Below are positions 2,829-57,400 of a DNA stretch of 64,000 nucleotides, piece by piece. The stretch's first letter is position 1. Each line of letters opens with the position of its first letter. Below the pieces are notes generated by a model. That model was not told the DNA's origin. It saw only the letters and a program-made list of their open reading frames with translations, and searched no databases. Position numbers and translations under genes: made by a program. Origin of the DNA: Beroe forskalii (Eukaryota; Ctenophora; Nuda; Beroida; Beroidae); NCBI GenBank assembly GCA_011033025.1, contig WFMF01000005.1, forward strand, positions 1,302,001 to 1,366,000. The letters run 5' to 3'.

Positions 2829-2970
2829 TACTATAACGATATGCAGTTGTCCTGATTACTTGAAAACAAGATTTCTACCGGAACAAAATGGTTCTGTTCA
2901 TATTTTAGTCCAACAGTCGTTTAAAATCAATAAAAGCAGCAATTGTGCTGCTATGGGAGCTATAACGTAC

Positions 2971-6240: not shown

Positions 6241-6246
6241 GGTGTC

Positions 6247-6785
6247 TACAAACTAATACCACTCGTCAGTCACAGGACGGACGCTGGTTGGAGTGAGTCT
6301 ACAAACTAATACCACACTAATTCACAGGACGGACGCTGGTTGAGTCTACAAACTAATACCACACTAATTCACAGGACGGACGCTGGTTGGAGTGAGTCTA
6401 CAAACTAATACCACACTTAACAGGATTGACGCTGGTTGGAGGGAGTCTACAAACTAATACCACACTTCACAGGACGGACGGTGGTTGGAGTGAGTCTACA
6501 AACTAATACCACACTTCACAGGACGGACGCTGGTTGGAGTGAGTCTACAAACTAATACCACACTTCACAGGACGGACGCTGGTTGGAGTGAGTCTACAAA
6601 CTAATACCACACTTCACAGGACGGACGCTGGTTGGAGTGAGTCTACAAACTAATACCACACTTAACAGGACGGACGCTGGTTGGAGTGAGTCTACAAACT
6701 TATACCACACTAATTCACAGAACGGACGCTGGTTGGAGTGAGTCTAATACCACACCAATTCACAGGACGGACGCTGGTTGGAGTG
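6247..6785 (+). repeat. 49 bp minisatellite copying the GPS-exon acceptor
   Basis: About 12 copies of a 49 bp unit: CTACAAACTAATACCACACT, then TCACAG, then GACGGACGCTGGTTGGAGTG. The real GPS exon starts at 6766 with the same TCACAG|GACGGACGCTGGTTGGAGTGA. Each unit therefore repeats a 3' splice site plus the first ~21 exon bases. Using any upstream copy would add an in-frame TAA within the unit. A degraded version lies at 21150-21560. Confidence 0.9.
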
Positions 6786-6921
6786 ACGAGGGTTGCTCGA
6801 GCAGCGCAGAGAGCAGCCCCACTGAAGCAGTGTGCAAATGCTCCCACCTTACGCTCTTCGCTTCCAAACACTTCACTACCCCCAACAAACTAGACATTGG
6901 CTCTATCATCACCACCCGAAG
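6766..6921 (+). CDS. Polycystin-1-like exon: GPS cleavage motif
   Basis: Enters in phase 2 and leaves in phase 2. It encodes TDAGWSDEGCSSS, then VCKCSHLTLFASKHFTTPN: the Cys-rich GPS core, with a HLT-type cleavage tripeptide followed by the Phe-rich tethered strand usual in polycystins. The acceptor TTCACAG is the last of 12 tandem copies. Confidence 0.9.
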
Positions 6922-9900
6922 GTAGGCAGTTTGTATTCCTGAGTTATTGAACCCTTTTCAACAGCCAGTTGTTATTGAGTAATGATCTAATAAAGTAATA
7001 AGCTAATACATTCATAGAAAGCATAAAGTTGGTCGCCTAATAACTCGGCAAATTACTCCATCGGGCGTTCACGCCCCGTGCGATCTGCATATTTCCTATC
7101 ACAGTTTAGTCTCTTCTCCCTCCTTCTTCAATCCTTGTAGTATGAAACTGGTATGCAGTACTTTGATATGTTCGTACATTACCAATGATAATATATTCAT
7201 ACACCCTTAATCTTTATAGACTTTGGATTGACTCAGGGAGTCACCACTCACTACGCTCTCTTCTCCCAGGCTACAGGACGGTCACGTGATCCTGACCCTG
7301 ACCTGTGTCTTGCTATTCGTGTACCTGGTCGCTCTCACCATCTTCGTAAAGTTAGACATCCTCCGGGGCTCCAGCTCCAGTGTCATCTACCTCGAGGATA
7401 ACTATGCCAGGTTCGTGTTCAACGTCGATACTACAAGCAGGAACTAGCTGAATCAAGCCGAAACAACCAGAACGATGTTATGTCAAACATTTTCAATTTT
7501 GCTCAGCTGTTTCAGCTGTTTCAGCTGTTTCAGTTTGACAGGAAGTGAGATTTTATCGATTTATCTCTACCGTTAGTCTGTTTCAGGGACAGACAAGGAT
7601 ACCTTGTGAGGATTGTTACAGGATCCCAACCAAATGCTGGAACAACTGCAAGAGTAAGATATCTCGGAATGATCTTATCAATGTTGCTTATAAATCATAT
7701 TTCAGTGACTAGTATTTTGTCTGTCGATGAAAAGGGTGTGTGGCTGGACCAGTCGTGTGCATTAAAAGGGGCGTTCATAAGCTACCAGTTCCATGTGCAT
7801 TCTGTGTCCACACCCTTCACCCATCCTAAACTCGCATACAGCTGTACGGGAACACACCAAACCATCAGCTGATTAACCCCGTGCACGCAGGTAAACATCA
7901 AGCTGTACGGTAAGCAGCGAGAAAGTCCTGCTCGTCTGCTGTCCGCACAGCGGCCGCTCTTCGCCAACAAGTCCCGGGAGTCCTTCGTGCTCAAGTTCCC
8001 AACGAGTCTGGGCAAGATCCACCACATCCACATCTGGCACGACAACTCGGGGAAAGATCCGAGCTGGTTCCTGGAGAATGTCACCATCACCGACATCAAC
8101 TCCAATAGGACGAGGTGAAGAGGAGGAGGAGGGGGTTTAAAAGTGAGCTCGACAGCTTTTTTGGGTGTTTTTGAAGGAACAAATTGCTGCAATAACAATC
8201 TATGTTATGACCATTTGTTCCTCTCTAACCCTTTGTGCAGGTATTTCCCGTGTCACGAGTGGCTGGCTGTAGAGGAGGGAGATGGGAGTGTGGAGAAAAT
8301 GATACCCTGTTCTAAATCCCCTTACAAAACAAGGTTTTTGATACGTCTTTTTAAAATCCTCGCACTGAACGTAAAGGAAAGCCGTTTTTTATTATCGAGC
8401 TGGAAGTGATTTAACTTCTGATTTTATTTCTGAGACTGAGTAATTCCTGTCAGGTGGGATGCGTTTATCAGCAACGCCTCCTTCGCAGAACATCACCTTT
8501 GGGGCAGCCTCTTCAAGGACCACACCTACGCCAACTTCAGCAAGCCCCAGCGGCTCACTGTGGGATTTACATTCCTCTTCGTTTCCATGGCAACCAACGT
8601 TGCTTTCTGGCAACCTGCCCTCGATACGGTAACTTTTTGTTTATTCTGGGAGCATCTGTTTAGACTTTCACTGAGTTTACGACATTTGACTCTTTGAATA
8701 CCCTTGATGAACTGCTGAAACAGCTTCACATACCAATAATTGATAACATATCTCCTTTCAGACGTTCACGTTCACCATCTTCAACATCGGAAGTGAGGTG
8801 ATGTCGCAAGGTCTGGTGAGTAGTCTGCTCGTGTTGCCCTTCATCATCGGAGTTATCGTGCTCTTCAGACGCAGCCAGACTCGGATGCCCCTCCTTGTGT
8901 ACCCGGACTCTACCAAAGTCCTGTCTCAGACATCTGTCCAGGAGTCTCCCACAGGTAAATCAGGGGATTGATCAGGGGATCGAAGGAAGTGATTTGGAGG
9001 AAGTTGCATTGAAGATCATACGAAGAACCCAGCATGAGCATTGAGGAATGGAGGGCATTGATTTTGAAAGAAAATAAGACTCCGTGCTAATCTCACATCC
9101 CTCCCCACAGGTACCAACCAGGCAAGGGATACCGCTCCTGCCCCTCATCCCGTGAACCCCGAGAACCCAACCTCCCAGTTCCTCTGCGAGGGGGGCCTGG
9201 CTCTTCCCTGGTGGTGCTCCATCGTAGCCTGGGTTAGTAGCACAGGATGGACTTGTAAAAATTCAACTGCCCAGTGCCCATAAAATTGGGATAAAATGAG
9301 CTTCTGATAAACTTATTAGTAGTTCATCTAAGTGCATGATATTGTCAAATTCCATGAAAATCGGACTATGAGAAGTTTAGAAACCTATGCGTCTCAGGTC
9401 CTGTGCTTCCTGGCCATGATCTGCTCCGTGGTGCTGACCACGCTGTACGGTATCCAGTTCGGGAACAACAAGTCCCTGCAGTGGCTCGCTTCTCTGGGCG
9501 TGTCTCTCTTAGAGAGCCTCTTCATCTCACAACCCTTCATCGTGAGTGTATTATTTATATTTTATCCTGGATGTCGTGTAGTTGAAATTCTGCTTAGAAG
9601 TAAGACTATAAATTGAATATTGTTTCTAGCCTGGTGCTCATTATTTTGTGTTCTCCAGGTTCTAGGCTGTGGAATTTACGCGACTCTAACTTTCGGTAAA
9701 AGGAAGAAAGACAGGTCGCTATCCAAGAAAGACACCATGACCCTGAATTACATGTTGCCTAGAAACTTCACTACCAAGGCCTATGAAGGACTGGCCAGAC
9801 TCAAAGCTTTCAGGTACCAATAACTCAATATCTAGTGCTATTCATTCATTGAATATATCATATTGGTTGATCTAACTAGAAGTTGCAATCCGTACTACGA

Positions 9901-12900
9901 AGTACGGAGAGGCAATTAGAATACACCTCTGACCGCAGGATTCGGTCCAAGACTCGAAAAAACTGCCAACCCAAAAATACAGTTTGCTATTTCTATCCCA
10001 CCCCCCAGGTTTCGTTCTACCAAGCCACCGCCCCACAAGTCAACCATCCTATCACACCCCACCCCTCAGGTTTCGTTCTACCAAGCCACCACCCCACAAG
10101 TCTACCATCCTATCACACCCCACCCCCCAGGTTTCGTTCTACCAAGCCACCGCCCCAAAAGTCTATCACACCCCACCCCCCAGGTTTCGGTCTACCAAGC
10201 CACCACCCCACAAGTCTACCATCACACCCCACCCCCCAGGTTTCGTTCTACCAAGCCGCCACCCCACAAGTATACCATCCTATCACACCCCACCCCCCAG
10301 GTTTCGTTCTACCAAGCCACCACCCCACAAGTATACCATCCTATCACACCCCACCCCTCAGGTTTCGTTCTACCAAGCCACCACCCCACAAGTCTACCAT
10401 CCTATCCCATCCACCCCTCAGGTTTCGGTCTACCAAGCCACCACCCCACAAGTCAACCATCCTATCCCATCCACCCCTCAGGTTTCGGTCTACCAAGCCA
10501 CCACCCCACAAGTCTACTATCCCATCACACCCCACCCCTCAGGTTTCGGTCTACCAAGCCACCACCCCACAAGTCTACCATCCTATCACACCCCACCCCT
10601 CAGGTTTCGGTCTACCAAGCCACCGCCCCACAAGTCTACTATCCTATCCCACCCCACCCCTCAGGTTTCGGTCTACCAAGCCACCGCCCCACAAGTCTAC
10701 TATCCTATCACACCCTAAGATGAGAAGTACGTATGATACCGGGCCACAAGTACGTACTAGTACGGACCATTTGAAAAGTACGTACCCGTACCAGGCGTAC
10801 GATTGAACAATATTTCTTGAAAATCAAAATTTATTGTGGAGGTTCGATCATTATTGTTACACACATTTGTACTTGAATCATGCCCTAAAACGCTTCAGCA
10901 GAGTTCTAGAATTTGCCTCATATATTCTTTGTGCCACATGCTCCGTCTTTTCCCCCGTTTAGCAATATTATTCATGAATTTATCTATACGTACTTTTCTC
11001 CAGGATTTAAAAAGTACGTACTAGTACGGTTCATTTAAAAGTACGTACCGTACGTACTTCTCATCTTAGATCACACCCCACCCCCCAGGTTTCGTTCTAC
11101 CAAGCCACCGCCCCACAAGTCTACTATCCTATCACACCCCACCCCCCAGGTTTCGTTCTACCAAGCCACCACCCCACAAGTCTACTATCCTATCCCACCC
11201 CACCCCCAGGTTTCGTTCTACCAAGCCACCGCCCCACAAGTCTACCATCCTATCCCACCCCACCCCCCAGGTTTCGTTCTACCAAGCCACCGCCCCACAA
11301 GTCTACTATCCTATCACACTCCACCCCCCAGGTTTCGTTCTACCAAGCCACCGCCCCACAAGTCTACCATCCTATCACACTCCACCCCCCAGGTTTCGTT
11401 CTACCAAGCCACCACCCCACAAGTCTACCATCCTATCCCACCCCTCAGGTTTCGTTCTACCAAGCCGCCACCCCACAAGTCTACCATCCTATCACACCCC
11501 ACCCCCCAGGTTTCGTTCTACCAAGCCACCGCCCCACAAGTCTATTATCCCATCTCCATCACACACACACCCACCCCTCAGGTTTCGGTCCACCAAGCCA
11601 CCACCCCACAAGTCTACTATCCTATCCCACCCCACCCCCAGGTTTCGTTCTACCAAGCCACCACCCCACAAGTCTACTATCCTATCACACTCCACCCCCC
11701 AGGTTTCGTTCTACCACCCCACCACCCCACAAGTCAACCATCCTATCCCACCCCACCCCTCAGGTTTCGTTCTACCAAGCCACCACCCCACAAGTCTACC
11801 ATCCTATCCCACCCCCCAGGTTTCGGTCCACCAAGCCACCGCCCCACAAGTCTACTATCCTATCCCACCCCACCCCCCAGGTTTCGGTCTACCAAGCCAC
11901 CGCCCCACAAGTCTACTATCCTATCCCACCCCACCCCTCAGGTTTCGGTCTACTGCCACCGCCCCACAAGTCTACTATCCTATCCCACCCCACCCCTCAG
12001 GTTTCGTTCTACCAAGCCACCACCCCACAAGTCTACAATCCTACCCCACCCCCCAGGTTTCGTTCTACCAAGCCTCCACCCCACAAGTCTACCATCACAC
12101 CCCACCCCCCAGGTTTAGGTCTACCAAGCCACCACCCCACAAGTCTACAATCCTACCCCACCCCTCAGGTTTCGTTCTACCAAGCCACCGCCCCACAAGT
12201 CTACCATCACACCCCACCCCCCAGGTTTCGTTCTACCAAGCCTCCACCCCACAAGTCTACTATCCTATCACACCCCACCCCTCAGGTTTCTGTTCCTACC
12301 AAGCCACCACCCCACAAGTCTACCATCCTACCCCCACCCCCCCAGGTTTCTGTTCTACCAAGCCTCCACCCCACAAGTCTACCATCACACCCCACCCCCC
12401 AGGTTTAGGTCTACCAAGCCACCACCCCACAAGTCTACAATCCTACCCCACCCCTCAGGTTTCGTTCTACCAAGCCACCGCCCCACAAGTCTACCATCAC
12501 ACCCAACCCCCCAGGTTTAGGTCTACCAAGCCACCACCCCACAAGTCTACAATCCTACCCCACCCCTCAGGTTTCGTTCTACCAAGCCGCCACCCCACAA
12601 GTCTACCATCCTATCACACCCCACCCCCCAGGTTTCGGTCTACCAAGCCACAACCCCCCCCAAGTCTACCATCACTCCCCACCCCCCAGGTTTCGGTCTA
12701 CCAAGCCGCCACCCCACAAGTCTACAATCCTATCACACCCCACCCCTCAGGTTTCGTTCTACCAAGCCTCCACCCCACAAGTCTACTATCCTATATCTCT
12801 ATCACACCCCACCCCTCAGGTTTCGGTCTACCAAGCCACCACCCCACAAGTCTACCATCCTATATCTCCATCACATCCCACCCCCCAGGTTTCGTTCTAC

Positions 12901-14280
12901 CAAGCCTCCACCCCACAAGTCTACTATCCTATATCTCTATCACACCCCACCCCTCAGGTTTCGGTCCACCAAGCCACCACCCCACAAGTCTACTATCCTA
13001 TCACACCCCACCCCCCAGGTTTCGGTCTACCAAGCCGCCACCCCACAAGTCAACCATCACACTCCACCCCCAGGTTTCGTTCTACCAAGCCACCACCCCA
13101 CAAGTCTACCATCACACCCCACCCCTCAGGTTTCGGTCTACCAAGCCACCACCCCACAAGTCTACCATCCTATATCTCCATCACATCCCACCCCCCAGGT
13201 TTCGTTCTACCAAGCCTCCACCCCACAAGTCTACTATCCTATATCTCTATCACACCCCACCCCCCAGGTTTCGTTCTACCAAGCCACCACCCCACAAGTC
13301 TACTATCCTATCACACTCCACCCCCCAGGTTTCGGTCTACCAAGCCGCCACCCCATAAGTCTAACATCCTATCACACCCCACCCCCTCCCTCAGGTTTCG
13401 TTCTACCAAGCCACCGCCCCACAAGTCAACCATCCTATCACACCCCCTCCCTCAGGTTTCGGTCTACCAAGCCACCACCCCACAAGTATACCATCCTATC
13501 ACACCCCACCCCCCAGGTTTCGTTCTACCAAGCCACCGCCCCACAAGTCTACCATCACACCCCACCCCTCAGGTTTCGTTCTACCAAGCCCCTCCCCCCA
13601 ATTAGTCGACTATCACACCCCACCCCCCAGGTTTCGTTCTACCAAGCCCCTCCCCCCAATTAGTCGACTATCACACCCCACCCCCCAGGTTTCGTTCTAC
13701 CAAGCCGCCACCCCACAATTCACCATCTCTATCACACCCCATCCCACAGGTTTCGGTCTACCAAGCCACCACCCCAGAAGTCTACCATCTTATCACACCC
13801 CACCCCTCAGGTTTCGTTCTACCAAGCCACCACCCCACAATTCACCATCTCTATCACACCCCATCCCACAGGTTTCGTTCTACCAAGCCGCCGCCCCACA
13901 AGTCTTTAGTCTACTATCCTATCACACCCCACCCCCCAGGTTTCGTTCCACCAAGCCACCACCCCACAAGTCGACTATCCCATCTCCATCACACCCCACT
14001 CCTCAGGTTTCGGTCTACCAAGCCCCTCCCCCAAGTCGACTATCCCATCTCCATCTCTACCCATCCCCCAGGTTTCGTTCCACCAAGCCGCCACCCCACA
14101 AGTCTACCATCCTGGCTGCCCGGGAGGAATGCATGCGGAGGAAGGAGTTGTCGGAGCTAGTGAACTGCCTGCTGCTCCACGTGTACCTGTTGGTAGTAGT
14201 GCTGTTAGCTGCTAATAGCTCCCTCCCCGATAGTGGGCACTGGAACGTGTACGGTGTCACTACCGCTTTCAATGGCAGGT
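6766..14280 (+). CDS. Polycystin-1-like gene, GPS to mid-membrane region
   Basis: Eleven consecutive exons join in frame: 6766-6921, 7270-7410, 7587-7653, 7891-8114, 8241-8333, 8454-8628, 8762-8954, 9111-9232, 9398-9541, 9659-9813 and 14072-14280. In order they encode a GPS motif (VCKCSHLTLFAS), first membrane helix, PLAT domain, and further membrane helices with cytosolic loops ending in RREEC-like basic sequence and a helix (LLLHVYLLVVVLLAANSS). This is the polycystin-1/PKD1L order. Family members are large ciliary or membrane receptors that are cleaved at the GPS and partner TRPP channels. The TOP domain, channel-like last helices and C-tail are absent after 14280, and the upstream extracellular exons lie downstream at 15811. 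I cannot say which PKD1 paralogue this is. Confidence 0.88.
7270..7410 (+). CDS. Polycystin-1-like exon: first membrane helix
   Basis: Phase 2 to phase 2. A hydrophobic run VILTLTCVLLFVYLVALTIF is followed by a short basic and Ser-rich linker, which fits TM1 after the GPS. Confidence 0.85.
7587..8114 (+). CDS. Polycystin-1-like exons: PLAT domain
   Basis: Two exons, 7587-7653 and 7891-8114. They encode GYLVRIVTGSQPNAGTTAR, VNIKLYGK and later KIHHIHIWHDNSGKDPSWFL, with the typical PLAT beginning, the HIWHDN strand and the PSWFLENV end. PLAT domains bind lipid or protein at the membrane. The 8114 exon leaves phase 2. Confidence 0.9.
8241..8628 (+). CDS. Polycystin-1-like exons: post-PLAT loop and TM2
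   Basis: 8241-8333 encodes YFPCHEWLAVEEGDG, the polycystin post-PLAT strand. Its donor AAG|GTTTTT is weak but phase-correct. 8454-8628 encodes WDAFISNASFAEHHLWGSL and then a helix with LTVGFTFLFVSMATNVAFW. Confidence 0.82.
8762..8954 (+). CDS. Polycystin-1-like exon: TM3
   Basis: Encodes TFTIFNIGSEVMSQGLVSSL and the helix LLVLPFIIGVIVLFRRS. Enters phase 0 and leaves phase 1. Confidence 0.85.
9111..9813 (+). CDS. Polycystin-1-like exons: loop, TM4-TM5 and following loop
   Basis: Exons 9111-9232, 9398-9541 and 9659-9813 join in frame. They carry a Pro-rich loop, PWWCSIVAWVLCFLAMICSV, SLLESLFISQPFIVLGCGI and a basic loop ending KAFR. The last donor leaves phase 2. Confidence 0.85.
9999..14100 (+). 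repeat. ~58 bp minisatellite copying the TM-exon acceptor, ~65 copies
   Basis: Each unit reads CACCCCACCCCYCAG|GTTTCGTTCTACCAAGCC, then RCCRCCCCACAAGTCTACYATCCTATC. That is a polypyrimidine-rich acceptor plus the first ~40 bases of the exon that truly starts at 14072. Units vary from ~50 to 70 bp. An inverted-repeat transposon interrupts the array at 10715-11069. Long apparent proteins on both strands are repeat artefacts unless an upstream copy is spliced. Confidence 0.93.
10715..11069. mobile_element. MITE with 19 bp inverted ends and 8 bp target duplication
   Basis: The ends are CTAAGATGAGAAGTACGTA and its exact reverse complement. The repeat word ATCACACC flanks both sides (10707-10714 and 11070-11077). 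An 8 bp target duplication points to the hAT superfamily. The 355 bp body holds many GTACGTAC words and no open frame. Confidence 0.85.
14072..14280 (+). CDS. Polycystin-1-like exon whose 5' end seeded the 58 bp array
   Basis: Enters phase 2, matching the donor at 9813, and encodes RFRSTKPPPHKSTILAAREE, then a basic stretch and the helix LVNCLLLHVYLLVVVLLAAN, ending TTAFNG with a phase 2 donor. The first ~13 residues equal the repeated unit. Polycystins have a similar basic RxxREK-type stretch before this helix. Confidence 0.85.
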
Positions 14281-15384: not shown

Positions 15385-15722
15385 TGTTTCAAAGGAATGT
15401 GGTGTCAAGAAGGAATTTGGTGTCAAGAAGGAATGCAGTGTCAAGAAGGAATGTGGTGTCAAGAAGGAATGTGGTGTCAAGAAGGAATTTGGTGTCAAGA
15501 AGGAATTTGGTGTCGAGAAGTAATGTGGTGTCAAGAAGGAATGTGGTGTCAAGAAGGAATGTGGTGTCAAGAAGGAATGTGGTGTCAAGAAGGAATGTGG
15601 TGTAAAGGAATGTGGTGTCAAGAAGGAATATGGTGTCACGAAGCAATTTAGTGTCAAGAAGGAATGTGGTGTCAAGAAGGAATGTGGTTTCAAGAAGGAA
15701 TGTAGTGTCAAGAAGGAATGTG
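15385..15722. repeat. 18 bp minisatellite, about 18 copies
   Basis: Tandem copies of TGGTGTCAAGAAGGAATG with scattered substitutions and one shortened copy. Because 18 is a multiple of three, open frames appear on both strands; these are not evidence of a gene. It ends about 90 bases before the exon at 15811 and does not copy it. Confidence 0.92.
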
Positions 15723-15810
15723 TCGTCTACTTCTGTTATCTCGTTAATAATCTCATAATTTATCTCAAACGATTTCATGAATTGTCTCAACATATTACAA
15801 TCTGTTTCAG

Positions 15811-16431
15811 ATCACGTGTATGGATGTGATGACTAACGTCCCTCTCAACGTTATGATAGGAGTTGACACCATTCCGAGCGAACACGATAACTTGAGATAC
15901 GGTCTTGTAGAGCGGGACTCTACCACAGCCTTCCACTTTCCTGCGGAAGAATTAGCTAAATTTGGTGAGTTTCACGATAAAATTCTGCCTACAAAGTGTG
16001 CCTTCAACCTTACTATTACCTTATTAGTTTCTCCAACTTTTGCCAAGATATTTATTGTTGAAAGTGATGATCATGAAGATCTGTAATATCAGCGAATCAC
16101 GTTTTATGAAACTACACGTGGTATTTACTTGGCAGTTGGCACTGCTGCTATGTCAAACTGGTCAACATGCTCTCAAAGCTTTACTCATCTTATATCTTCA
16201 AGAGTTCAAGCTTCTTTGTGTACAATACTAGTGATGCCTTAACATGCACATACACGCACTACGTACACTGTGTGAGTACGCACATAACAAGCATGTGTTT
16301 TCAGAGGCAGGTAGTGAGGTTGTGGTGAGTGTAACGAATCACGAGAATCCGGAGTTACCGTACGACAAACAAACTCCGCCACCCGACCGAAAGTACAGTC
16401 TCCAGTACTGGTTCGAACGGTGCCTCTACAG
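15811..16431 (+). CDS. Polycystin-1-like exons upstream of the GPS (GAIN-type region)
   Basis: Exons 15811-15964 (phase 0 to 1) and 16305-16431 (phase 1 to 2) encode PLNVMIGVDTIPSEHDNLRY, FHFPAEELAKF, EVVVSVTNHENPELPYDK and SLQYWFERCLYR. The pattern of a short beta strand, an acidic P-x-x-x-D segment and a final aromatic-Cys-aromatic motif fits the polycystin region just before the GPS. The last donor leaves AG in phase 2 and would join exactly to the GPS exon at 6766 (CLYR-TDAGWSDEGC), yet it lies 9.5 kb downstream of it. Confidence 0.75.
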
Positions 16432-17109
16432 GTAAGAGATTAATATGGAACTGTCATCCTTTCTTCGTTATCCCTGAAACTCTAACACAGTTCTGAAATC
16501 ATTTATTGTTATGTATCATGCTTGTTAGATTGAGCGAACTGATGATTTCAAGTAAATTTGCCACTGGTCACAGCCTGAAAATGTGTCTACTGCGGGCGCG
16601 AAACAGTTTTTTATTATTTCAGCATTCGGAAAAGCACATTTTCCGCGGGTGCGCGCGCAGCACATTTCACCCCTGCCAGTTAAACGAACGGGCCCAGAAG
16701 ATTGTTATCGTTAGGTCTTACCTTAGCTGTAGGTCTTTGTAGGCCTTATTCCAGTGATCATCATTCTCTTCTTTTTAAATACATAATAACATACCAACTG
16801 AAGACTTAAATCTACATATAAATCTGCTAAATTAACAGGAATAATTATTTGAATTAATAACATCCCCTGGGATGGTATTAATCTATCTGATGTGTGGCAA
16901 ATAACTTGAGCGATACATCACTCATTATGAATTTCCAGCACCTAATTTAATAATTATCACCTAATAAATCTCTCTTTTACCTCGCGTTCAGCTCGTGATA
17001 GCGTAGAGAATTTCCGCCGTAATTTGCTTCATATCTCCTTACATTTTCATTCCCTATACTTACCTGCTTCATTAATTGTAATGTCGCTAAAGTTTACATT
17101 TTGTTTTAC
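16432..17109. other. Intronic DNA, nothing recognised
   Basis: AT-rich, with no supported exon, RNA gene or repeat. Confidence 0.4.
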
Positions 17110-18442
17110 CTGTTTCATCAGGACACTTCTTCACTCCGCAGTACTCCTTCGCCTGAACTTCTGTAGCACACCAGGGCTTTATGTCACCGTCCGGGTTACG
17201 ACAGTAGTTGTGATCACTGAAGTCGTTACGAACGTAAGCTAAGTTACACACTGCTTCAATTTTATCCTGTATTATTAACATAGTAGCAGGCCCGTTGGGC
17301 CTGTAAACACACAGATCACTCGGCGCTGCTATCGATAAATGGTTGCTTGATGCTGAACCGAAATTGGTTCTAGCTTCTGATCACTTTGCTGTAAATGCTC
17401 GTTAACCATTGCATGATTTCAGATCAGTGTTATAACTGAGAGTTTCTGGACCTTGCTCGTGTAATTCAAGTGCTCACCTTGCATCCCATGTGTTGCAGGT
17501 TCGCCCACTGATGGCCTCGTTTGTTTGACCACGGTAGCTCTCTCCGTTACCCTCGTAACAATCTGTAAAGAGAGGAGATGTTAATAAATAGACAATAAAT
17601 AAATTATTACAACTATCACTATTTACCATACGCGATTTCACGGCATCTGTATAATCAGGAAACCTGTACTATCGCTCAGCTTGATAACTGCCTGCACTGC
17701 GTCACATGACTTGAGTCACGTGTTAACTCGCGACCAGAGATGTGAATAGGATGAATAGGGGGCCTCTCAATTACTTTCTTATATTTTCCCAATATTTGGA
17801 ATTCTATTGATCATTTAACAGCTACTCTTCTCACTTACATGTATCTACTTTTCGGATATTTATCATCAGTCAGCTCTTCTCATAGTTTCAACTGTTTAAA
17901 GTACCTGGAACGACGACCACGAAAGAATATTCCGGTATACATCGTTCGCTGGTATCACTTGCAAAGCAGCACTTTATTCCATTCGATTTGCCCGGAACAA
18001 GACCTGAAATTTACTTTAGGTAAAGTCTAGTAAAATTATTGCATTCTTCTACTATCTCAATAGTACTCAATAAGTTTAGATGCTATGGTTTTCTTTTTCT
18101 GGGAACGGAAATATATGGAAAATGTCTTCATGACCCTAGATTGTTTCTGTATGCTTTCTTCCTTTCCCTGCCTATTTTGTTTAATATATTCGTACAAATG
18201 GCTCATTATAACGATATGCAGTTGTCCTGATTACCTGAAAACAAGATTTCTACCGGAATAAAATGGTTCTGTTCATATTTTAGTCCAACAGTCGTTTGAA
18301 ATCGAGAAAAGCAGCAATGGTGCTGCTATGGGAGCTATAAAGCTATAACGTACCATTAACTGTGTCACATAATGCAGCGGTTCTCTCATTATCATTCAAA
18401 TCAATCCCTGTGATTGCTCCATCTTCCGTTGTGGGCATCACG
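17110..18442 (-). CDS. Kringle-domain gene, kringle exons
   Basis: Three antisense exons join in frame: 18354-18442 (copy of 2971-3059), 17478-17562 and 17110-17300. The kringle reads CYEGNGESYRG, SGRTCNTW, HNYCRNPDGDIKPWC and EYCGVKKC, giving the six expected cysteines plus one extra (AVCN). Kringles are extracellular protein-binding modules. The last exon leaves phase 1 after KKCPDET, so the gene continues beyond 17110; the next exon was not found. The overall protein type is unknown. Confidence 0.8.
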
Positions 18443-21400
18443 CTGCAAAGTCCAGGTGATTATGATGGTAGCGGAACTATTGTAAAGCCTCACATATACA
18501 ACTGGTAGAAATGACCCTAGAATAGCTGTTCTCCTAATATGTCATTGTTCATGTAGAACCATTATTTAATATTTTTAGAGTTATTTTGACTTTTCAGGCC
18601 ACTAATATATCGAAGAAAGCCAAAGTGACCCTAAAAATGGGCTGAAATATCATGGGCTACCTTCATCATTTCTCACTAATCGGCACCTGCCGTTTTACAT
18701 ACCACGGTATGTACCGACTAGTTGGGAAATGTACCACGGTATGTACCGACTAGTTGGGACATGTACCATGGTATGTACCGACTAGTTGGGAAATGTACCA
18801 CGGTATGGACCGACTAGTTGGGACATGTACCATGGTATGTACCGACTTGTTGGGACATGTACCACGGTATGTACCGACTTGTTGGGATCTAAACATACTC
18901 TCATAGCCCTCATGTTCAAAGATTTTTTATTATCTTTGTAGATTTCATCAGATAAGATGAAATTTATTAATTATAAATGGGGTTTAATGGTAATTTTAGA
19001 GGATAAAATTCTTGGTCTAGTGACCAATAGGAAAATTTTTGTCCAAGGGGCCGGCTAAAACGGTTCAAAAACGATTCGATTTTTGTCCATAAGGCCCTTT
19101 TAAAAAGGGCCGGTTAAAAAAAGGCCGGCTAAATAAAGGCCAATAAGGTAATCTGTTCATAGATGACGAAACTTGTGCCTGCGATTAACAATATTCGTTG
19201 TAGTGCCCCTATTTCACCTTGAGTCGATCAGCTTGACCATGTACCCTGGCTTGTAAGCTTGAATGAGATACACCCACGGAAAAAATATGTCGGTTACCAC
19301 CATACGTGTGATAGCCCCCAGCTTACCCCCCAAAATTGATATAGTTTGGGCAGAAAGAAGAAACCAAAAACTCGTGTAAAAATAAGACAATTTAACAGTA
19401 CATATGACCCATTCTCTTGTTGCAGTTTAACTGAATCAACGATGTGTTTCTGTTTGGAAAGTAAACAAGGGAAAATTTAACATAAAAAACTTTGCCTGGG
19501 AAGAGGTTATTTTGTATTTCTCCAAAATTAAACCCCGCCCCCCCTCCCAAATTTTAAAAGGGGGAAAATTTAAAAAAATTGCGGGTCTCGGAACAAATTT
19601 TGAACATCCCGATTTCCCCCGGGAATGTATTGTTAAAATTATATTTTTTGTCTTACATCATCAATAAAAGAGATTGTCGGCGCCAATTTAACAAAATGAA
19701 AAAATTGCGTTCCGAATTTGGCCGTTCTGCGATCTTTGTCGTTTTGCGTCCACCACAATAGGGAAATTTTTGAAAAAAAGGTTGGGGGTGGGGGTTTTCC
19801 CTGTTGATAAATTGCCCACAAACCTATTTTAAATATACAGGGTGTTAAAATGTATTATTCCCGATGTTGGTGTTTCTTCGCGAATCTTAAGACTTTTTTT
19901 TTGACCCCTAACAATTTTAAAAAAATTTATTTTTTTAATTTTCAAACCTCATGAAACAAATTTTGGCTATTTAAAAAATTTAAATGTTCTTTTTTCTTTT
20001 AAAAATAAAAACCCAAGCCCTATCCCTCAAATTCGTCAAATAGTTGATGTCGGAAAAACCCCAAAAAACTACATTTAAAATTAATTCTTTTCTTACCCTC
20101 CTAATCAAATAAAAAATGTTAACACACGCAAAGCCAACTGCATTCACCTAAAATTAATTTATAAATCAGTGAATTCTCGGAAAATTGAAGGAGAAAAGGT
20201 TGCAAATGGCCCTTTTCTTCAAAGAAATTGGGGCCCCCATTATTGAAACAATTCTGGTAAATTTAACTGTAACGGATAAATGATAAAACCTTTCATCCCT
20301 TTGGACCTTTAAAATTTTAAAACGTGTTATTCTTTAGATAAAGATGAAAATTCTCATTCAAATCATCTAATTTAAACTTTTCTCCTTGTCTCCTTTAGGA
20401 CCTCCCTTTTTCAGTGTTTGAATTAGGGTTCATCCCCAGTGCTATTTTTTTCCGAGAGCTTGAATTCGACAGGTGTGGTCATGGGGCCTTCAGAGGGACC
20501 CGGCATTGTGCTTCTCTCAATGACCCTGTTCCCTGGGGTAAAAGGGTGTATCCCCATCCTAACCTCAAAATTCCTTTTTTATGAAAAGGGGGGTTAATGA
20601 CTAAACAAGTTGTATTATTAAATCTTAAAAATCCCGATCTTCCATCCGGGAAATGCCCTTATAAAACTATGAAAATTTGGTTATGGTATATATTCACTTT
20701 TAAAGTGAAAAGACTATTTTTTGTATTATAATTATAGGGTAGATACAGGGTTACATCAAATCTTCAAATTATGAAAAGTGCAACGAAAAAGAAACTATGA
20801 AAAGCAAAAAAGATTCTATTTTTCCTTCGTACTGGGGACTGGTTAAGGCTGCACCCCGCCCAAATACCTCTGACTCAGCCCAAAGTCTGAAAGGCGTTAA
20901 TGCATTTGTATGAAAAAACGATCCCCCGTGTAAAAATTTACCCTAAAAAAAAAAATCTTAGAACTTCCCATTGGAATCGGGAAAACATCGAACTCGTGAG
21001 AACAAAGTCAGGGCTGGCTCATGAATACCCCAATTTTTCATTTTAAAAAGGGGAAAAAGGCCCCCCGGTTTTTTAAACAGCTAAACAGATGTGGATGTGA
21101 TTACCAAAAAAAGGGCAAAGAATTTTTCTCCCAAACGTAATGGGTTTGCTGGTGTCTACAAACTAATACCACTCGTCAGTCCGGACGGCTGGTTGGATGA
21201 GTCTACAAACTAATACCACACTTAAAAATTTTCTGGGAAAAAAAAAGGGCGCTGGGTTTATCTCAAACAAACCCACTTCGGAGGACCTGGTTGGGGGTCC
21301 AAACTAATACCAACCCCAGGACGGACCCGGTTGGTTAGTCTACAAACTAATACCACACTTCACAGGGGACGTGGTTGGGTGGTCCCTCAAACTAATCCCC

Positions 21401-41584: not shown

Positions 41585-42244
41585 CTGTGCCTGAGAGGGA
41601 GGGTATTACAACAGGAATTAGATGTAAAATACAAACAGTGAATTACTCCCCAAGGTCAATTGCAGTACAGAGCACTGAGCAGTTCGATGCTTTCAAGGCA
41701 TGCAACAAATTGCTCAAAGCAGGTAATCCTCGACTTAGAAAACTGTCTCTCATTGAAGTCACAATATGACGCCTGCTATAATACCTTGTTCTCTGTAGTT
41801 AGCAGTTTGTTGAGGAAGTGTCTTTGGGAAATGAGTAAATTTATTTTGCCGAAAGATGGAAAATAATTCCTGGATCCAAAAGCAAGTAGCAGCTGCTAAG
41901 GCATACCGGAATAAACCCCATTGGAATGACAAGCCTCTTCTTGTCTTCATACTATGAAAGGTGACTTAAGTATGATGGATTCAAACTTGGTGTTACAGCA
42001 AGGTACATGTAGTACGATGAGTGAAGTTTGGTTCAGAAAGGTACCTATTGGTCGATGAAGTAAAATGATGGTTCACAAAATACCTATAGTGGGGTGGGTT
42101 AAAGTGGTGGTTTGGAAACGCACCTATAGTGAGACTGAGATGAATATCATTCACAAAATTAACGAACGTGTCATCTGAACATTGGAAGATAAATCGAACC
42201 GAGGTCGTCCTCCTGTTCAAGGTAATTCAAGTAATGCAAGACCG
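41585..42244. other. Region upstream of first CNOT1 exon
   Basis: The previous CNOT1 exon should lie here or further right, but none of its conserved sequence is visible. Confidence 0.45.
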
Positions 42245-43204: not shown

Positions 43205-43405
43205 CTAATGCTCAATCCACTTTTTCTGGTTGGCACTATTGAGGAATCTGTAAGCTACTACAGCCTCTGGCAAAACAATTTTGTGCTTTTCCAAATCTGC
43301 AAACATCTTCTCAAACTCAGCCATATAGCTCTGAAGATTCATTTTTTCAGGTCCAATGTACTTTTCAAATGTACAGTAAACCCTGTAGCAAGTTTGGGTT
43401 TCCAA
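43205..43405 (-). pseudogene. Retrotransposon gag fragment
   Basis: The 66 codons contain MNLQSYMAEFEKMFADLEKH and LPEAVVAYRFLNSAN. This matches the gag-like motif of LTR retrotransposons, a helix ending in Met-x-LP-x-x-V-x-A-x-x-LL followed by an asparagine-alanine turn. No protease, integrase or reverse transcriptase sequence, and no LTR, was seen nearby. Confidence 0.6.
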
Positions 43406-45189: not shown

Positions 45190-47714
45190 GCCCCCCCCGC
45201 ACTGCCCCGTGGTTTTGTCACATACCTGCACTGCCCCGTGGTTTTGTCACATACCTGCACTGCCCCGTGGTTTTGTCACATACCTGCACTGCCCCGTGGT
45301 TTTGTCGCATACTTGCACTGCCCCGTGGTTTTGTCACATACCTGCACTGCCCCGTGGTTTTGTCACATACCTGCACTGCCCCGTGGTTTTGTCACATACC
45401 TGCACTGCCCCGTGGTTTTGTCACATACCCGCACTGCCCCGTGGTTTTGTCACATACCTGCACTGCCCCGTGGTTTTGTCACATACCTGCACTGCCCCGT
45501 GGTTTTGTCACATACCTGCACTGCCCCGTGGTTTTGTCGCATACCTGCACTGCCCCGTGGTTTTGTCACATACTTGCACTGCCCCGTGGTTTTGTCACAT
45601 ACCTGCACTGCCCCGTGGTTTTGTCACATACCTGCACTGCCCCGTGGTTTTGTCACATACCTGCACTGCCCCGTGGTTTTGTCACATACCTGCACTGCCC
45701 CGTGGTTTTGGCACATACCTGCACTGCCCCGTGGTTTTGTCACATACCTGCACTGCCCCGTGGTTTTGTCACATACCTGTCACATACCTGCACTGCCCCG
45801 TGGTTTTGTCACATACCTGCACTGCCCCGTGGTTTTGTCACATACCTGCACTGCCCCGTGGTTTTGTCACATACCTGCACTGCCCCGTGGTTTTGTCACA
45901 TACCTGCACTGCCCGTGGTTTTGTCACATACCTGCACTGCCCCGTGGTTTTGTCACATACCTGCACTGCCCCGTGGTTTTGTCACATACCTGCACTGCCC
46001 CGTGGTTTTGTCACATATCTGCACTGCCCCGTGGTTTTGTCGCATACCTGCACTGCCCCGTGGTTTTGTCACATACCTGCACTGCCCCGTGGTTTTGTCA
46101 CATACCTGCACTGCCCCGTGGTTTTGTCACATACCTGCACTGCCCCGTGGTTTTGTCACATACCTGCACTGCCCCGTGGTTTTGTCACATACCTGCACTG
46201 CCCGTGGTTTTGTCACATACCTGCACTGCCCCGTGGTTTTGTCACATACCTGCACTGCCCCGTGGTTTTGTCACATACCTGCACTGCCCCGTGGTTTTGT
46301 CACATACCTGCACTGCCCCGTGGTTTTGTCACATACCTGCACTGCCCCGTGGTTTTGTCACATACCTGCACTGCCCCGTGGTTTTGTCACATACCTGCAC
46401 TGCCCCGTGGTTTTGTCACATACCTGCACTGACCTGTGGTTTTGTCGCATACCTGCACTGACCTGTGGTTTTGTCGCATACCTGCACTGACCTGTGGTTT
46501 TGTCGCATACCTGCACTGCCCGTGGTTTTGTCACATACCTGCACTGCCCCGTGGTTTTGTCACATACCTGCACTGCCCCGTGGTTTTGTCACATACCTGC
46601 ACTGCCCCGTGGTTTTGTCACATACCTGCACTGCCCCGTGGTTTTGTCACATACCTGCACTGCCCCGTGGTTTTGTCACATACCTGCACTGCCCCGTGGT
46701 TTTGTCACATACCTGCACTGCCCCGCTGTTTTGTCGCATACCTGCACTGCCCCGTGGTTTTGTCACATACCTGCACTGCCCCGTGGTTTTGTCACATACC
46801 TGCACTGCCCCATGGTTTTGTCACATACCTGCACTGCCCCGTGGTTTTGTCACATACCTGCACTGCCCCGTGGTTTTGTCACATACCTGCACTGCCCCGT
46901 GGTTTTGTCACATACCTGCACTGCCCCGTGGTTTTGTCACATACCCGCACTGCCCCGTGGTTTTGTCGCATACCTGCACTGCCCCGTGGTTTTGTCACAT
47001 ACCTGCACTGCCCCGTGGTTTTGTCACATACCTGCACTGCCCCGTGGTTTTGTCACATACCTGCACTGCCCCGTGGTTTTGTCACATACCTGTCACATAC
47101 CTGCACTGCCCCGTGGTTTTTGTCACATACCTGCACTGCCCCGTGGTTTTGTCACATACCTGCACTGACCCGTGGTTTTGTCACATACCTGCACTGCCCC
47201 GTGGTTTTGTCACATACCTGCACTAACCGTGGTTTTGTCACATACCTGCACTGCCCCGTGGTTTTGTCACATACCTGCACTGCCCCGTGGTTTTGTCACA
47301 AACTTGCACTAACCGTGGTTTTGTCACATACCTGCACTGCCCCGTGGTTTTGTCACATACCTGCACTGCCCCGTGGTTTTGTCACAAACTTGCACTAACC
47401 GTGGTTTTGTCACATACCTGCACTGCCCCGTGGTCTTGTCACATACCTGCACTGCCCCGTGGTTTTGTCACATACCTGCACTGCCCCGTGGTTTTGTCAC
47501 ATACCTGCACTGCCCCGTGGTTTTGTCACATACCTGCACTGCCCCGTGGTTTTGTCACATACCTGTCACATACCTGCACTGCCCCGTGGTTTTGTCGCAA
47601 TCTGCACTGCCCCGTGGTTTTGTCACATACCTGCACTGCCGCGTGGTTTTGTCACATACCTGCACTGCCCCGTGGTTTTGTCACATACCTGCACTGCCCC
47701 GTGGTTTTGTCGCA
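45190..47714 (-). repeat. 29 bp minisatellite copying a laminin EGF exon donor, ~87 copies
   Basis: On the - strand each unit reads TGTGACAAAACCACGGGGCA then GTGCAG|GTA, the last 26 bases of the exon ending at 47689 plus the start of its GT donor. Copies are highly uniform. On the + strand the array is open in all frames for up to 469 codons, but this is an artefact. On the sense strand a TGA recurs every three units (87 bp). Confidence 0.95.
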
Positions 47715-48439
47715 GGAGATAGCAGTTGATCCCTGCAAGTCACACTCGCACGGAATGTCGCATGAGAAGGCTGTGTCATCGTCTCCATAGTAACCAGGGA
47801 CACACTCGTCACAGTCACGGCCCCTGCACATGAAACACGATCTAGATTTCTAGGCAAAAGCTCAAGGTAAGAGTTATAGGTAAAGCTCTAGGTAAGAGTT
47901 CTAGCTAGAAGCTCGAGTTGGAAGTTCTATGCAGGCGGCTGAGGAGAGAGTTTAGAGTTCTATTTCGATATAATAATGATGTACATTTGGATCAATTGAA
48001 GACATACCCGAAGCTTCCCACACACTGGCACTGCCCGGTGACCGTGTCACAGGAGTCACTGTAGGACTTGTCCTGGTCACAGGAACACTCTGAAAAGGGA
48101 TTTACCAGGGTAGCCTTTTCAATCACGATAACCAATCATAATAGTCAAATATTGTTTTTATCGGATCAATTTTTCACTGGATTGAAGTATTTCAGGATAA
48201 TTTAGATAACTGAACAGCTTCCAATCAGGAACAATTGTACAACCTACAATTTAGATGGTTGATAAATGGTTCGCATGCCACATGATGAAATACAAATTTA
48301 CCTGTACAGTTAGGGTAACCATGGTAACCGATGTTACACTCGTTACACGCACGTGCAGTGTAGCCCTCCCTGCACTGACACTGTCCCGTTACAATGTCGC
48401 AGGATTCGGAAAAGGACCCGCTCTCAGAACACCCACACT
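47689..48439 (-). CDS. Laminin EGF-like exons
   Basis: 48302-48439 encodes ECGCSESGSFSESCDIVTGQ and CNECNIGYHGYPNC. 48008-48089 encodes SYSDSCDTVTGQCQC. 47689-47823 encodes GRDCDECVPGYYGDDD and then CDLQGSTAISCDKTTGQC. Phases 1, 2 and 2 connect. The CDxVTGQC spacing is the laminin EGF signature. Confidence 0.92.
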
Positions 48440-51400: not shown

Positions 51401-54400
51401 TCGATCGATGATCAGCGATTAGTGAAATGAAAAGTGTAATTTTTGTACTGAACTTTGGTAACGCAGATACTACGAGTTTCAGATATTTGGACATTTAAAG
51501 ATAGGAATGACCCTTTTCACTTACCCTTAGCTCCATCGTTGAAAATGGTACTCATGGAGAAGACTATCTGCTTACAGTACTCTTTCATCTTTGGCTCAGG
51601 GCTGGGATTTACAATATTAGTGCCAGATTTGTTTTACCAAAACTACAGTAAACTTGATTATGGAGGGGAGGGGATGTTACATCGCCAGAAATAATCATTC
51701 TATTATTTAATATCTACGTAATAATTATGTGAACGATCTCATATTCAATGAAATGATAACACATTATTAATTTATCTGGCTTCCTTGGACAACAGATGAC
51801 TTACTTGAGGTAGAGGTAGTGATAAGCGCAGTATTGAGTGAAGAGAGGACCGTGATCCAGAGGCAGAGGATACAGCATGTCAGGAGTGAAGTCCTTCAGA
51901 GGCACCAGAGCAAGGTAATCCTAAGGAAGAGGGAATCAGAGCAAGGTAATCCTAAGGAAGAGGGAATCAGAGCAAGGTAATCCTAAGGAAGAGGCACCAG
52001 AGCAAGGTAATCCTAAGGAAGAGGAAATCAGATCAAGAGAATCCAAAGGAAGAGGGAGTCAGCTGAATAATTCTTAGGAAGAGGGAATCAGAGCAAGGTA
52101 ATCCTAAGGAAGAGGGAATCAGAGCAAGGTAATCCTAAGGAAGAGGGAATCAGAGCAAGGTAATCCTAAGGAAGAGGGAATCAGAGCAAGGTAATCCTAA
52201 GGAAGAGGGAATCAGAGCAAGGTAATCCTAAGGAAGAGGGAGTCAGAGCAAGGTTATCCTAAAGATCAGGAAATCAGGGTAAGTGGGTTTATGGCCTTAG
52301 TCCTTACATATTGCATTGCTTCCTTTGCATGATTCGTAAACCCACACTACAACATTACAATATCTTTTATGAGATAGTGATGCAGTGAAGCTGTGAACTC
52401 ACCACATAGACACTGTCAGGTTGCGTAATGCTGACACTGACAATGATGACTCTGTTCCCTCCCGTGACAGGGAGAGGGGTCCAGTGCCCAGTCCAGGAGG
52501 GGTTGTGAGACACCACCCCACTCTTCCACTCTACCTGGCAGGGTGCCAGCCACTCGGCACCCACTCGCACTCGGGCAGAAGGAGAATAGCAGGTCCGCTG
52601 GGAGAGGGAGGAGGTATTATCAGAGTGATGTGACTACACAAGAACGGAGGTGCGTTCTATTGTAAGCAGTTACAAACATGTTCCCATGCTATTGTGTTCA
52701 CAATTCCCTCAAAAACTTCTTATTACTTCTTTACCACTGCTATAGTTTACATTATGATGCTCCTACCTTGACTGCCATTTTCGTCCTGGACACTGACTCT
52801 GCCCTTTGTCATGTCGTCCGTGTACTTGTAGTAGTGGACTATGATGACGTAGTCCTCCGCTACGACGGACGGGATGATGTTCTCTATTAGCACCACGGAC
52901 AGGGATGGCTGAAAAGGGGTGGAACTTTGAATGATACGCCTTTCTGTCGAATTTGCAGTCGATGTTTCAGTGTTACACTCTCGTAGGACTTTGTTTGGTT
53001 GAGATTGATCATTTTCCAAACTATAGAACTGATAGGATTTCGATAATAAAAGTATGTATTTTTCATTTTCCTGACCTCGTTTTCGTCAAGAAGCAGCACT
53101 CCAGTACCGTGGTAGAAGGTGTCAGGAAGGTCCTTTTTAACTGCGTCTATAGAACTCTCACTCTCATAGAAAACATAGCCTGGGGAATCATGTCTGTCCC
53201 AAGAGTTAGGGGTGGAAGTTTATCTGGGAAATGCTAGAATTCTAGATGATTAGACGAAATTTTCATTATCATCATTTTAGAAAATGATGCGCATTATTAA
53301 TTTTTTCACTATTCGCTTACACCCCTACCAGTGAGGTCAATGAAGTCTGATTGGAGGCATTCGTTGTCAGGTCCTTCGATGCAGTAGAACTGTGCTTGTA
53401 TCAGATCCAGATTCCAATCAGACTCTTTGACCAACGTAACAGAGTCCACAAAGAGTCACATGATGAGATGATTTAAAATATTTGAGCTTATGTCCTTGTA
53501 TTGTGTCATATCATTTCCAAACAGTCAAACCGAGATACTTTAAGCTGTAGCTTTTTTAAAGTCTGACACCGGACACGTATTAACCTTCCTAAAAATCAAA
53601 GAGTACTGAATCCACAAGATAAAAATTGCTGCAACTCACCACAAGACCATGTGGTCCCCCTCAATTGACAGAGTAACAGACACCGACTTGCTCTGAGGAA
53701 TAAAGCGCTTGGGTTTTCTGCCGGAGGTTGTGACTACAGCTCTGCACCCTTCCTCCCAGGGACACGGAATGAATTCCACCTTGCCATTCTGCCGGCCCTG
53801 AACCCATCCTGTCGTGGGGTAGTAGCAGTGATGCCCGGGAAAAGGGATGATATTTTAGCAAGATTACACCATTGAATTGAGCTTTTGGAGGGATTAAAAA
53901 ACACGGTGGATATTGTTCTCCAGATGCTTATCTTCAGAGAACAACTGCTGAAGACTCACATAACATTAGCAGAAACTGTGTCCCCGAAATTAGAGTAGTG
54001 GTAGGGTTTGTAGTATTGGATTATCACGTGATAGGCTGTTCCTCTCTGTACCCCTGCCTCGATGCGTAGCTGAGAAGTTCATTGTTGGTTATTTGATTCA
54101 GTTCAGAGATGATTAAGTTCGATTTTCACAAGAAAGCAAGAAGGAATTATATAACAACAAAAAATTTGTCCAGTAATTAGCAGCATCCATCTGCCTTACA
54201 CCTATCCTAATCGCAACATGTTCATATCATTAAATGGTTAACTTATCCTTATACTAATTCTACAAGGTATCCAGGTAGCTTGTTGGTAGCCCCCACAAGG
54301 TTCTGTGCCCCGAACAGGTTGACTCCAGCTAGTTTGGTGTAGGCAGGCTGTGAGACAGGAGACAGCCACGACTCCGCCTCCTCGACCAGGTGATCACGTG

Positions 54401-57400
54401 ACTCTACTGGGTACCTGTACTTGTTACACCTGGGAGAGGTGGTGAAGTACTGGGTACCTGTACTTGTTACACCTGGGAGGGGAGAGGGGGGTATAGGGGA
54501 GGAAGCGAGAAGTTAGGGATGGTGCAGAAAAGGAGTAAATGGGGAACTGTAAAAAGGATTAACTATGGGAAAGAAATGCGAACTAAGACTGTCATTGAGG
54601 TTCACAGGTGTTGGCTGCTGCTAAGTAAGTAAGTAAGAAAGTAAGAAGGCGTTTAAAAGAAGGAGCTTGAGTAGAGGAAGGATTCCGCCACAATGAAGAC
54701 ACTCACAACTCAGTGAAGGGTCCAGGATTACATCTCGGGGACACGTCAGATTTGAGGGAAGATGTGAAGTAGTATTCCTTGGGGAGGGCGACAATGTCGA
54801 ACTGAGGGGAAAGTCATGAGGGGATAATTTAAAATAGAATGTTTACTATGTTTTAATTAATTGAAGAAAAATTCATAATATCAACTGCAACTATTTGTTT
54901 GGAATGTTGGCCGCCACTGGGCTAAATGCACTAAATTCTTGATTAAACCTAGAACACTTCGTGTAAGACTCACTATCTTTGTGTAATAAGAAGAGGATTG
55001 TATTTTGATGACTTGGGTCCCTGGCTGTTCCACAACAACACCTTTCACACCAAGCGTCCCTGAAAGACTCTGTCTCAGACTGAATAATTAGGAAAATCCA
55101 TACGATGCAAATACTCCGATTTTGAGACTATAATATAGAAACATAGTGCCAATTGAAAATAGCTGTCAATAAAATTAGAGCCCAATTTTCACAGCCCTTT
55201 TGTCTGCACCATTCATGTAACTGTAGTTAAATTACCTTTTCAAACGCCAACGTGTCTGGAAGTTAGCCCTATCCGGGATGCAATTTAAACAAGATCAGTA
55301 GAAATCAGACAGCTGATTATTATTTGGGTCATGTACGATGAATAGGCGGTAGAGAGTGACGTCATTATTTGGGCTTTGAGTGTCTAATTAATCGCATGGA
55401 ACTGTGTACTGTTGGAGCAGGACCTGTTGATTAGGTTGATAGAAGCAATTCCAAGCACATGGTGTAGTATTTCCACCCAGCTATGATTGCTATATCTACA
55501 TTAGTTATACTCGATCGATTCATCATTGCTTTGTACATGGTTTGTACATTTCTTATCGGCTTTATCTAGTGATACACGCTGAATACTCGTCAGTGTGATG
55601 TTTGTATTTACTGAATTGCTTTCTCCTTTTCTCGTACTTCCGTTGTATTGTGATGTTACAGTTAGCGGACTATTTTGAAATATTGTTTAGTAATTTTATT
55701 CTACATTTTCACGTTTACTCTCTACGAAATAGTCGTACATGTGTATTCTTACTGATGAAATAGAAAAAAACTGCCAAGGAGTAAAATTTATCTTTTTTTA
55801 TGATATGAAAGACTCTAGTTTATCGACTAATAAACTGATTTAGTTTTTGTTGAAAATGTGAACGAGTTTTCCTCTGATCGATAAAATATGAATAAACCAG
55901 TCTTGATTTCGACGTGACGTTCGTAATTAACCCAGCTCTCTAAAACATTTTGATCTCTGCCGCACAGAGATTTGGTACTTTGGTAATCTGGTTTATTAAA
56001 AGGATACACATGAGACCCCACCCTGCCTCAATTCACGACTGCACGAGTAAACCTAACACCAAGCACGACTATAATCACGACTCCTGATTGGTTGCATTCA
56101 TCCAAGTGTGAATAGCGTCACTCCTACAGCAAGATAGTGGCGACCTTACTTACACCTTGGACCTAATGCTCTTAAGTTTAGAAGTTTATAGGTAGTTCTT
56201 ATCCTCTTACTGGGGTGATCAGAGGTGTTCAGAAAGGCTTGTTAACCATTATCAGACTCCCGGGAGTGCTGTTTAATTCTTGTGCTGATGACCGTCTCCA
56301 TTGCTAACTGCTGAGCTGTTTCCTATTCCGCCTCTTCCCCTTGCACCGTCTTTGTTAATAGCCACGTGTCACGAGAGACTCCCCTCACACACAGTGTCCT
56401 TTTCAAACACAGTGTTCTTACCATCCAGGTGCCAAGCATGTTTAATAAACCCATGTTTGAGAATGAGGCTTCAGGGCCCCCTCTAGTCATGCTCCCAATT
56501 ACTACAGTGCATGTCAGGCACCCAATTAACAGGCCCTGATTGGGCACCCACTAACATCCAGATAGGGTCCATTTATCCCAAGTTCCCTGATGGATTACAT
56601 GTTTATGTTGATCAACGTCATGCACAGAGTCCAGCACAGTGTGATGAGATTGGTTCCAGATTACTTGACAAGTTTACACTGCTTTCGTTGATTGATGTTG
56701 AGCTTTATTTTGATCTAGTTGCTGATTCGTTTTACGCCTTTACAGAAATTATTTTCGTTTCGCATTGTTCATAAATATTTTGATTGCTTACTGTATATGA
56801 ATAGTTTGATGCTAACACTACCATTGGGATCAATACAAATTATTGAGCATTCATTGACATAAGTTTTGATCGCTGATGGTAAACTCGATACTTGACTGCT
56901 TGATCACAGTTCCCACACTACCACATTGATCCGTAACTAGTGACCATTGATCTCTGAAACCTGATGACTTGATCCCACGCTCATTCAGACAGGAAGGTTC
57001 GAATGTTGGTGTGAATTGTGCAGATCATGGATAGAAAGTGCCCTTGTCAACACAGCATCAGAATGAAGTGTGTGAATAGCAAGCACATACCCCCACCCAC
57101 CACTGCCAGTACAGGAGGAGGAGGAGTTGGAGTTGGAGGAGGAGGAGGAGGGGGATTGTGGGATTCAGTGCTCACACCACCTCTCTCCGCAGCCTCATCA
57201 CAGGTGATGTCACGACTCAGTTCTTCAGTTAGACACTCAGGGGTTCGAAGCTTTATCAATATTTGCAGAAGTCTGTAGAAGTGTAGAAGATTTAACTCCA
57301 ATTAGGTGATTAAGTACTTATTATCCCTTTCAATGCTTCATGCCTATCCTAATTCAGGGCAGTAGCAGTTGTGCTAAGTTTGTAGAGAAACACTCTTACC

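Follow-up and report, generated by a model that had tools for sequence, protein, structure and literature searches.

Tandem arrays whose unit joins the edge of an exon to its splice site, and which grow on the intron side, were described earlier in lancelets as 'mirage' minisatellites. According to the available text of two reports, they occur in amphioxus Adh3, in the globin genes BflGb6 and BflGb9, and in TnC and PGBD5 (PMC3087553, PMC3902484), the last two genes coming from the second report (PMC3902484); the globin array has 3–6 copies. Variable minisatellite-type repeats at exon–intron boundaries are likewise described, in the accessible part of the source, from human segmental duplications (PMC2812944), and the Rogers model, as cited in PMC3087553, derives intron gain from the tandem duplication of AG/GT proto-splice sites. 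Here we report such arrays in a ctenophore, Beroe forskalii, based on a window of 64,000 nucleotides (C580:1302001-1366000, in an assembly of 216 Mb and 1134 contigs) and on the adjoining 200 kb upstream (pieces L009–L028), 264 kb in all. The COX1 protein encoded on contig C1134 of the assembly, translated with code 4, matches that of B. forskalii at all of 507 aa, which makes this species the most likely source; for ARPC1, a nuclear protein, the closest named relatives among the best 120 matches listed are about 50% identical. The arrays are probably mirage-type minisatellites, that is, GC-rich (guanine–cytosine-rich) duplications that persist when they reach over an exon edge.

With the lancelet mirages, as far as these are described in the available text, the ctenophore arrays share the repetition of exon edge plus splice site towards the intron, and they differ in belonging to a distant phylum and in size, with up to about 87 copies against the 3–6 of the globin array. 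They also recur within 264 kb, where they were tested against random placements. Like the human repeats they lie at exon–intron boundaries; the human repeats are reported, with RNA support, to alter the transcript and to be able to create novel introns, whereas the ctenophore arrays, in this also unlike those of lancelets, are known from DNA alone. As in the Rogers model, splice-site sequence is duplicated next to an exon, but here the arrays lengthen existing introns. Three hallmarks of mirages were found: a unit spanning the exon–intron boundary with its splice site, in cases 1, 2, 3 and 5 of the window and in seven cases from L009–L028, presence on the donor as well as the acceptor side, and length instability between copies or alleles, in array 2 and at the donor of exon 8762-8954. 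Since the unit differs at each locus, the name 'mirage' denotes a pattern and not a lineage. Our literature search returned no ctenophore report and no genome-wide test, which is weak evidence of absence as most subscription journals fell outside it. Among the papers found, the pattern was already known from single amphioxus genes and human segmental duplications.

An earlier note on the window had placed five such arrays in two genes. All five were recovered, four of them as calls of Tandem Repeats Finder (TRF); the fifth, case 5, is absent from the TRF list and was confirmed from the sequence and from a 24-base piece of its unit that matches exactly twice. They fall in four transcription units rather than two. 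The unit lengths given in the note hold for four arrays (49, 29, 31 and 43 bp), whereas case 2, put at about 58 bp, has a unit of 61 bp by TRF. That each unit combines the border of an exon with that exon's own splice site is backed by homology or coding score in cases 1, 2, 3 and 5, and is unproven in case 4 (Table 1).

Cases 1 and 2 lie in one plus-strand polycystin-1-like gene, recognized by GPS and PLAT matches and by an alignment to polycystin-1. The unit of case 1 comprises about 28 bp of intron end, including the AG, and 21 bp of exon start; its exon has an acceptor score of 6.2 and a coding score of 11.6, and the GPS match begins at profile position 11 of 45, which is the array edge. 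In case 2 the exon-side residues PPPHKSTILAAREEC align to human polycystin-1 (E 0.0055), and a second copy of the gene has the same exon after its array. Case 3 belongs to a minus-strand gene with laminin-EGF exons, and the best laminin-EGF match there reaches only to position 21 of the 49 in the profile, which is the donor on the array edge; an exon following the array was looked for and not found. Because the GPS and laminin-EGF queries extended past the array edge, the junctions of cases 1 and 3 are placed there. In case 5 the decoy copy, too, was predicted as a very small exon by the gene finder, and no Pfam match was obtained for this minus-strand gene in the two pieces scanned. On the plus strand, case 4 comes after a beta/gamma-crystallin-like exon and has a strong donor at its end (52279). 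Its coding score is weak (6.5), the reading frame of the exon runs into a stop within the third unit, an exon further downstream was not seen, and the exon that the gene finder placed over the array is on the minus strand, opposite to the strand assumed in the note.

Arrays 2 and 3 are each crossed by an open frame, at 9883-10806 (307 aa) and 45023-46432 (469 aa) of the window, respectively; these frames result from the composition of the repeat units and are not to be taken for genes. Another, at 41240-41605 on the minus strand, which we take to be part of CNOT1, was joined by the gene finder to the laminin-EGF gene but is not part of it.

Table 1. Arrays and attached exons of the window (window positions), and clear junction arrays found with TRF in the upstream pieces.
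Feature	Position	Strand	Details
Case 1, acceptor array	6244..6786	+	49-bp unit, 11 copies (TRF; copy alignment)
Exon attached to array 1, GPS motif, polycystin-1-like gene	6766..6921	+	Gene finder; GPS E 1.5e-8
Exon with donor single in window, ninefold in C447 copy	8762..8954	+	Donor motif at 8948
Case 2, acceptor array	9997..14113	+	61-bp unit, about 68 copies (TRF; copy alignment)
Exon attached to array 2, polycystin-1-like	14072..14278	+	Acceptor score 8.0; coding score 21.3; polycystin-1 alignment
Case 3, donor array	45199..47714	-	29-bp unit, 86 copies aligned; TRF 45199-47711, about 87
Exon attached to array 3, laminin-EGF	47689..47823	-	Gene finder; donor score 7.0
Case 4, array, junction unproven	51906..52277	+	31-bp unit, 12 copies (TRF)
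Case 5, duplicated acceptor	54406..54480	-	Two copies, 43-bp spacing; sequence, two-copy scan
Exon attached to case 5	54264..54429	-	Gene finder; acceptor score 8.5; coding score 16.3
Donor array	L009:8977		Ion-channel exon
Acceptor array	L012:7862		Junction array clear by eye
Donor array	L017:7136		LTV1
Acceptor array	L018:8815		No Pfam match over cut-off for exon
Donor array	L027:7360		PKD domain in preceding exons
Donor array	L028:3099		No Pfam match over cut-off for exon

In the upstream stretch eight arrays carried a predicted junction, and six of these were clear by eye. The remaining two, at L025:4225-4755, look spurious; they were dropped from the list made by eye and retained in every count. 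One more acceptor repeat, near L021:9530-9660, came from a scan for two-copy duplications; its exon is presumably a myosin head. Hence there are 11 clear junction cases in 264 kb, four of them in the window. Donor-side cases are case 3, those of L009, L017, L027 and L028 and that of the C447 gene copy described below; cases 1, 2 and 5 and those of L012, L018 and L021 are on the acceptor side. The additional copies lay on the intron side in the cases inspected by eye. At LTV1, homology flanks the array on both sides (Pfam LTV E 6.4e-49; human LTV1 E 4.8e-44). The query for the ion-channel exon was cut at the junction, so that its domain match supports the exon and not the exon end. The L027 and L028 arrays are located upstream of the polycystin-1-like exons of the window, on the same strand. 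The view of the earlier note that the arrays have position in common, and not sequence, is supported and extends to the adjoining 200 kb.

A second copy of the polycystin-1-like gene was found on contig C447, and the nine exons compared were 93–100% identical. The donor motif of exon 8762-8954, present once in the window, occurs nine times in the C447 copy (2923-3206 of the reversed contig end), and array 2 has 17 copies there against 68 in the window. The ninefold versus single donor in the two gene copies indicates that the arrays are unstable. The C447 gene copy (L029, L030; C447:823001-835265) also has two intronic insertions relative to the window, of about 0.9 and 1.4 kb. Within the polycystin-like region, a segment that holds two exons and an 18-bp minisatellite is duplicated at a distance of about 22 kb, with 93–94% identity (window 15397-17282 and 17604-18134; L028:3756-5637 and 6353-6885).

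The arrays were compared with predicted splice junctions for TRF periods of 25–100, with random placements within 1.5 kb of each array as the null. Junctions came from a home-made gene finder trained on sequence in which each array was cut down to one copy, with splice matrices trained on non-array junctions only; it replaced a version run on the raw sequence, which called splice sites throughout the arrays and took these calls into its own training. In the window, 4/9 arrays had a predicted junction (1.0 expected, P 0.008), a count that includes the minus-strand call at case 4; the proportion of five in seven given in the earlier note therefore depends on the list of arrays used. Upstream the count was 8/33 (2.6 expected, P 0.0016). 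Across six parameter settings, one of which repeats the base setting, the upstream count stayed at 8 or 9/33 with P 0.0011–0.0022, and one setting gave 3/9 in the window (P 0.056). For both stretches together, 12/42 arrays were on junctions, about three times the expected 3.7, 1 was within an exon (4.4 expected), so that arrays are scarce there, and 29 were elsewhere (33.9 expected); the sole array counted as exonic comes from a cluster of donors, L027:7300-7650. Within genes that have introns of up to 3 kb, and with exonic placements removed, the count was 11/24 (4.9 expected, P 0.004). Arrays of shorter period were not found on junctions (0/58 for periods 15–24, 1.1 expected; 0/55 for periods 10–14, 0.6 expected). 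Splice score alone, with exons ignored, also distinguished the arrays from the null (Kolmogorov–Smirnov P 0.026 for the upstream stretch, 0.0008 for the window).

Base composition and the scarcity of arrays inside exons together account for most of this excess. The GC content was 0.526 in exons, 0.377 in other sequence, 0.511 in junction arrays and 0.491 in the remaining arrays with at least four copies. With placements matched for GC only, 5.2 junction arrays were expected against the 12/42 observed (P 0.003); when exonic placements were also excluded, the expectation rose to 8.0 (P 0.07), with 8/33 against 6.1 upstream (P 0.23) and 4/9 against 1.9 in the window (P 0.10). A junction-seeking process is hence not required, and most of the excess follows from GC-rich birth combined with loss inside exons. 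The earlier note had proposed comparing tandem arrays with splice junctions against shuffled positions; carried out on predicted junctions in 264 kb, such a comparison yields a raw excess that is reduced by these corrections. Of the two causes it offered, selective tolerance, together with GC-rich birth, explains most of the excess, and initiation at exon edges is not needed. Tandem arrays would originate as duplications of short stretches rich in GC, which here are mostly exonic. Those within exons would be removed because they disturb the protein, and those spanning a junction would be tolerated, since the copy next to the exon body would be the one spliced and the others would leave with the intron. 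The copy used would be the 3'-most for acceptors and the 5'-most for donors, and the decoys would need no function.

Several results weigh against this explanation. Under the GC-matched, non-exonic null, arrays of four or more copies keep some excess (8/14 against 3.8, P 0.012), and two-copy duplications outside TRF arrays fall on junctions in 7/17 cases (1.35 expected), although three of the seven come from a single repeat-rich part of L017; case 5 is another of them. The exons, moreover, were defined by homology and by our own gene finder, and the copy taken to be spliced is the one suggested by the genomic sequence. The excess at both copy numbers would suit a mutational process in which tandem duplications begin at exon edges, such as one driven by breaks or pausing tied to splicing or to the exon–intron step in GC. 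We consider such a process unlikely, if worth keeping in mind, as the corrected counts over all copy numbers and in the upstream stretch argue against it, the units have no sequence in common, and the exon share of the unit is not clearly different from uniform (mean 0.64 in ten units with hand-set boundaries, P 0.067). The remaining excess may be left for an exon-edge process or for better survival of junction arrays. It is also improbable, more so than an exon-edge process, that a few arrays near exons were picked after the fact and the exon edges misplaced. To the credit of that explanation, two of the eight upstream arrays look spurious, the window junction of case 4 lies on the strand opposite to the original model, and significance is lost when a coding score of at least 12 is demanded, with array bases left out of the exon score (upstream 3/33 against 1.25, P 0.12; window 1/9, P 0.25). 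Lower cut-offs of 0, 5 and 8 gave 7/33, 7/33 and 5/33 upstream (P 0.004, 0.0025 and 0.022) and 4, 4 and 3/9 in the window (P 0.003, 0.003 and 0.006). The upstream stretch, furthermore, had no part in the original finding and is nevertheless enriched at every parameter setting, and the GPS, laminin-EGF, polycystin and LTV1 cases are supported by homology.

Each array does set a line of decoy sites beside the true one, as the earlier note had stated: the AG/GT core was intact in 11/11 copies in case 1, 65/68 in case 2, 83/86 in case 3, 10/12 in case 4 and 13/13 at LTV1. If functional, the decoys would set alternative splicing or slow the splicing of these exons, a reading for which the intact cores speak and which we nonetheless hold to be the least probable of all. 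The copies are alike throughout, so that intact cores require no selection. Identity to the exon-attached copy did not fall with distance in cases 1–4, nor in the C447 version of array 2; at LTV1 it did (rho -0.64, P 0.03). Nor is there a sign of frame-keeping, since unit lengths that are not multiples of three (9/10, and 9/12 after the addition of two later cases of 66 and 57 bp) are about as frequent as expected by chance. One junction, in addition, is ninefold in the C447 gene copy and single in the window, and splicing is reported to be undisturbed in amphioxus in the available text (PMC3087553, PMC3902484).

The units are unrelated to each other, as had been claimed: those of cases 1, 3 and 5, LTV1 and L028, searched across the assembly, were each found only at their own locus, and the unit of case 2 is present also in the second gene copy. 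A dispersed element as the source of the arrays was considered and is unsupported, the five searched units being confined to their own loci. In contrast to the junction arrays, one 32-bp minisatellite (window 3320-3714 and 18700-18887) appears dispersed. Satellite arrays with a 314–325 bp unit and an inner 11-bp repeat (TRF) were observed in both orientations at 1-2190, 25229-26886 and 27236-31091 of the window; the same satellite fills L011:2080-10000 and L012:1-792.

If the density of 11 cases per 264 kb held genome-wide there would be thousands of cases, a figure that is an extrapolation and not a measurement. Should an exon-edge process be at work after all, which we think doubtful, it would make junction-spanning duplications throughout the genome and so provide a standing source of alternative splice sites and new introns. 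The recurrence of such cases, and the difference between the two gene copies at one array, open three questions to testing: how splicing protects genes against the growth of repeats, whether decoys contribute to the gain of introns, and whether exon edges are preferred starting points of tandem duplications. Junction arrays may thereby show how genes tolerate growing repeats.
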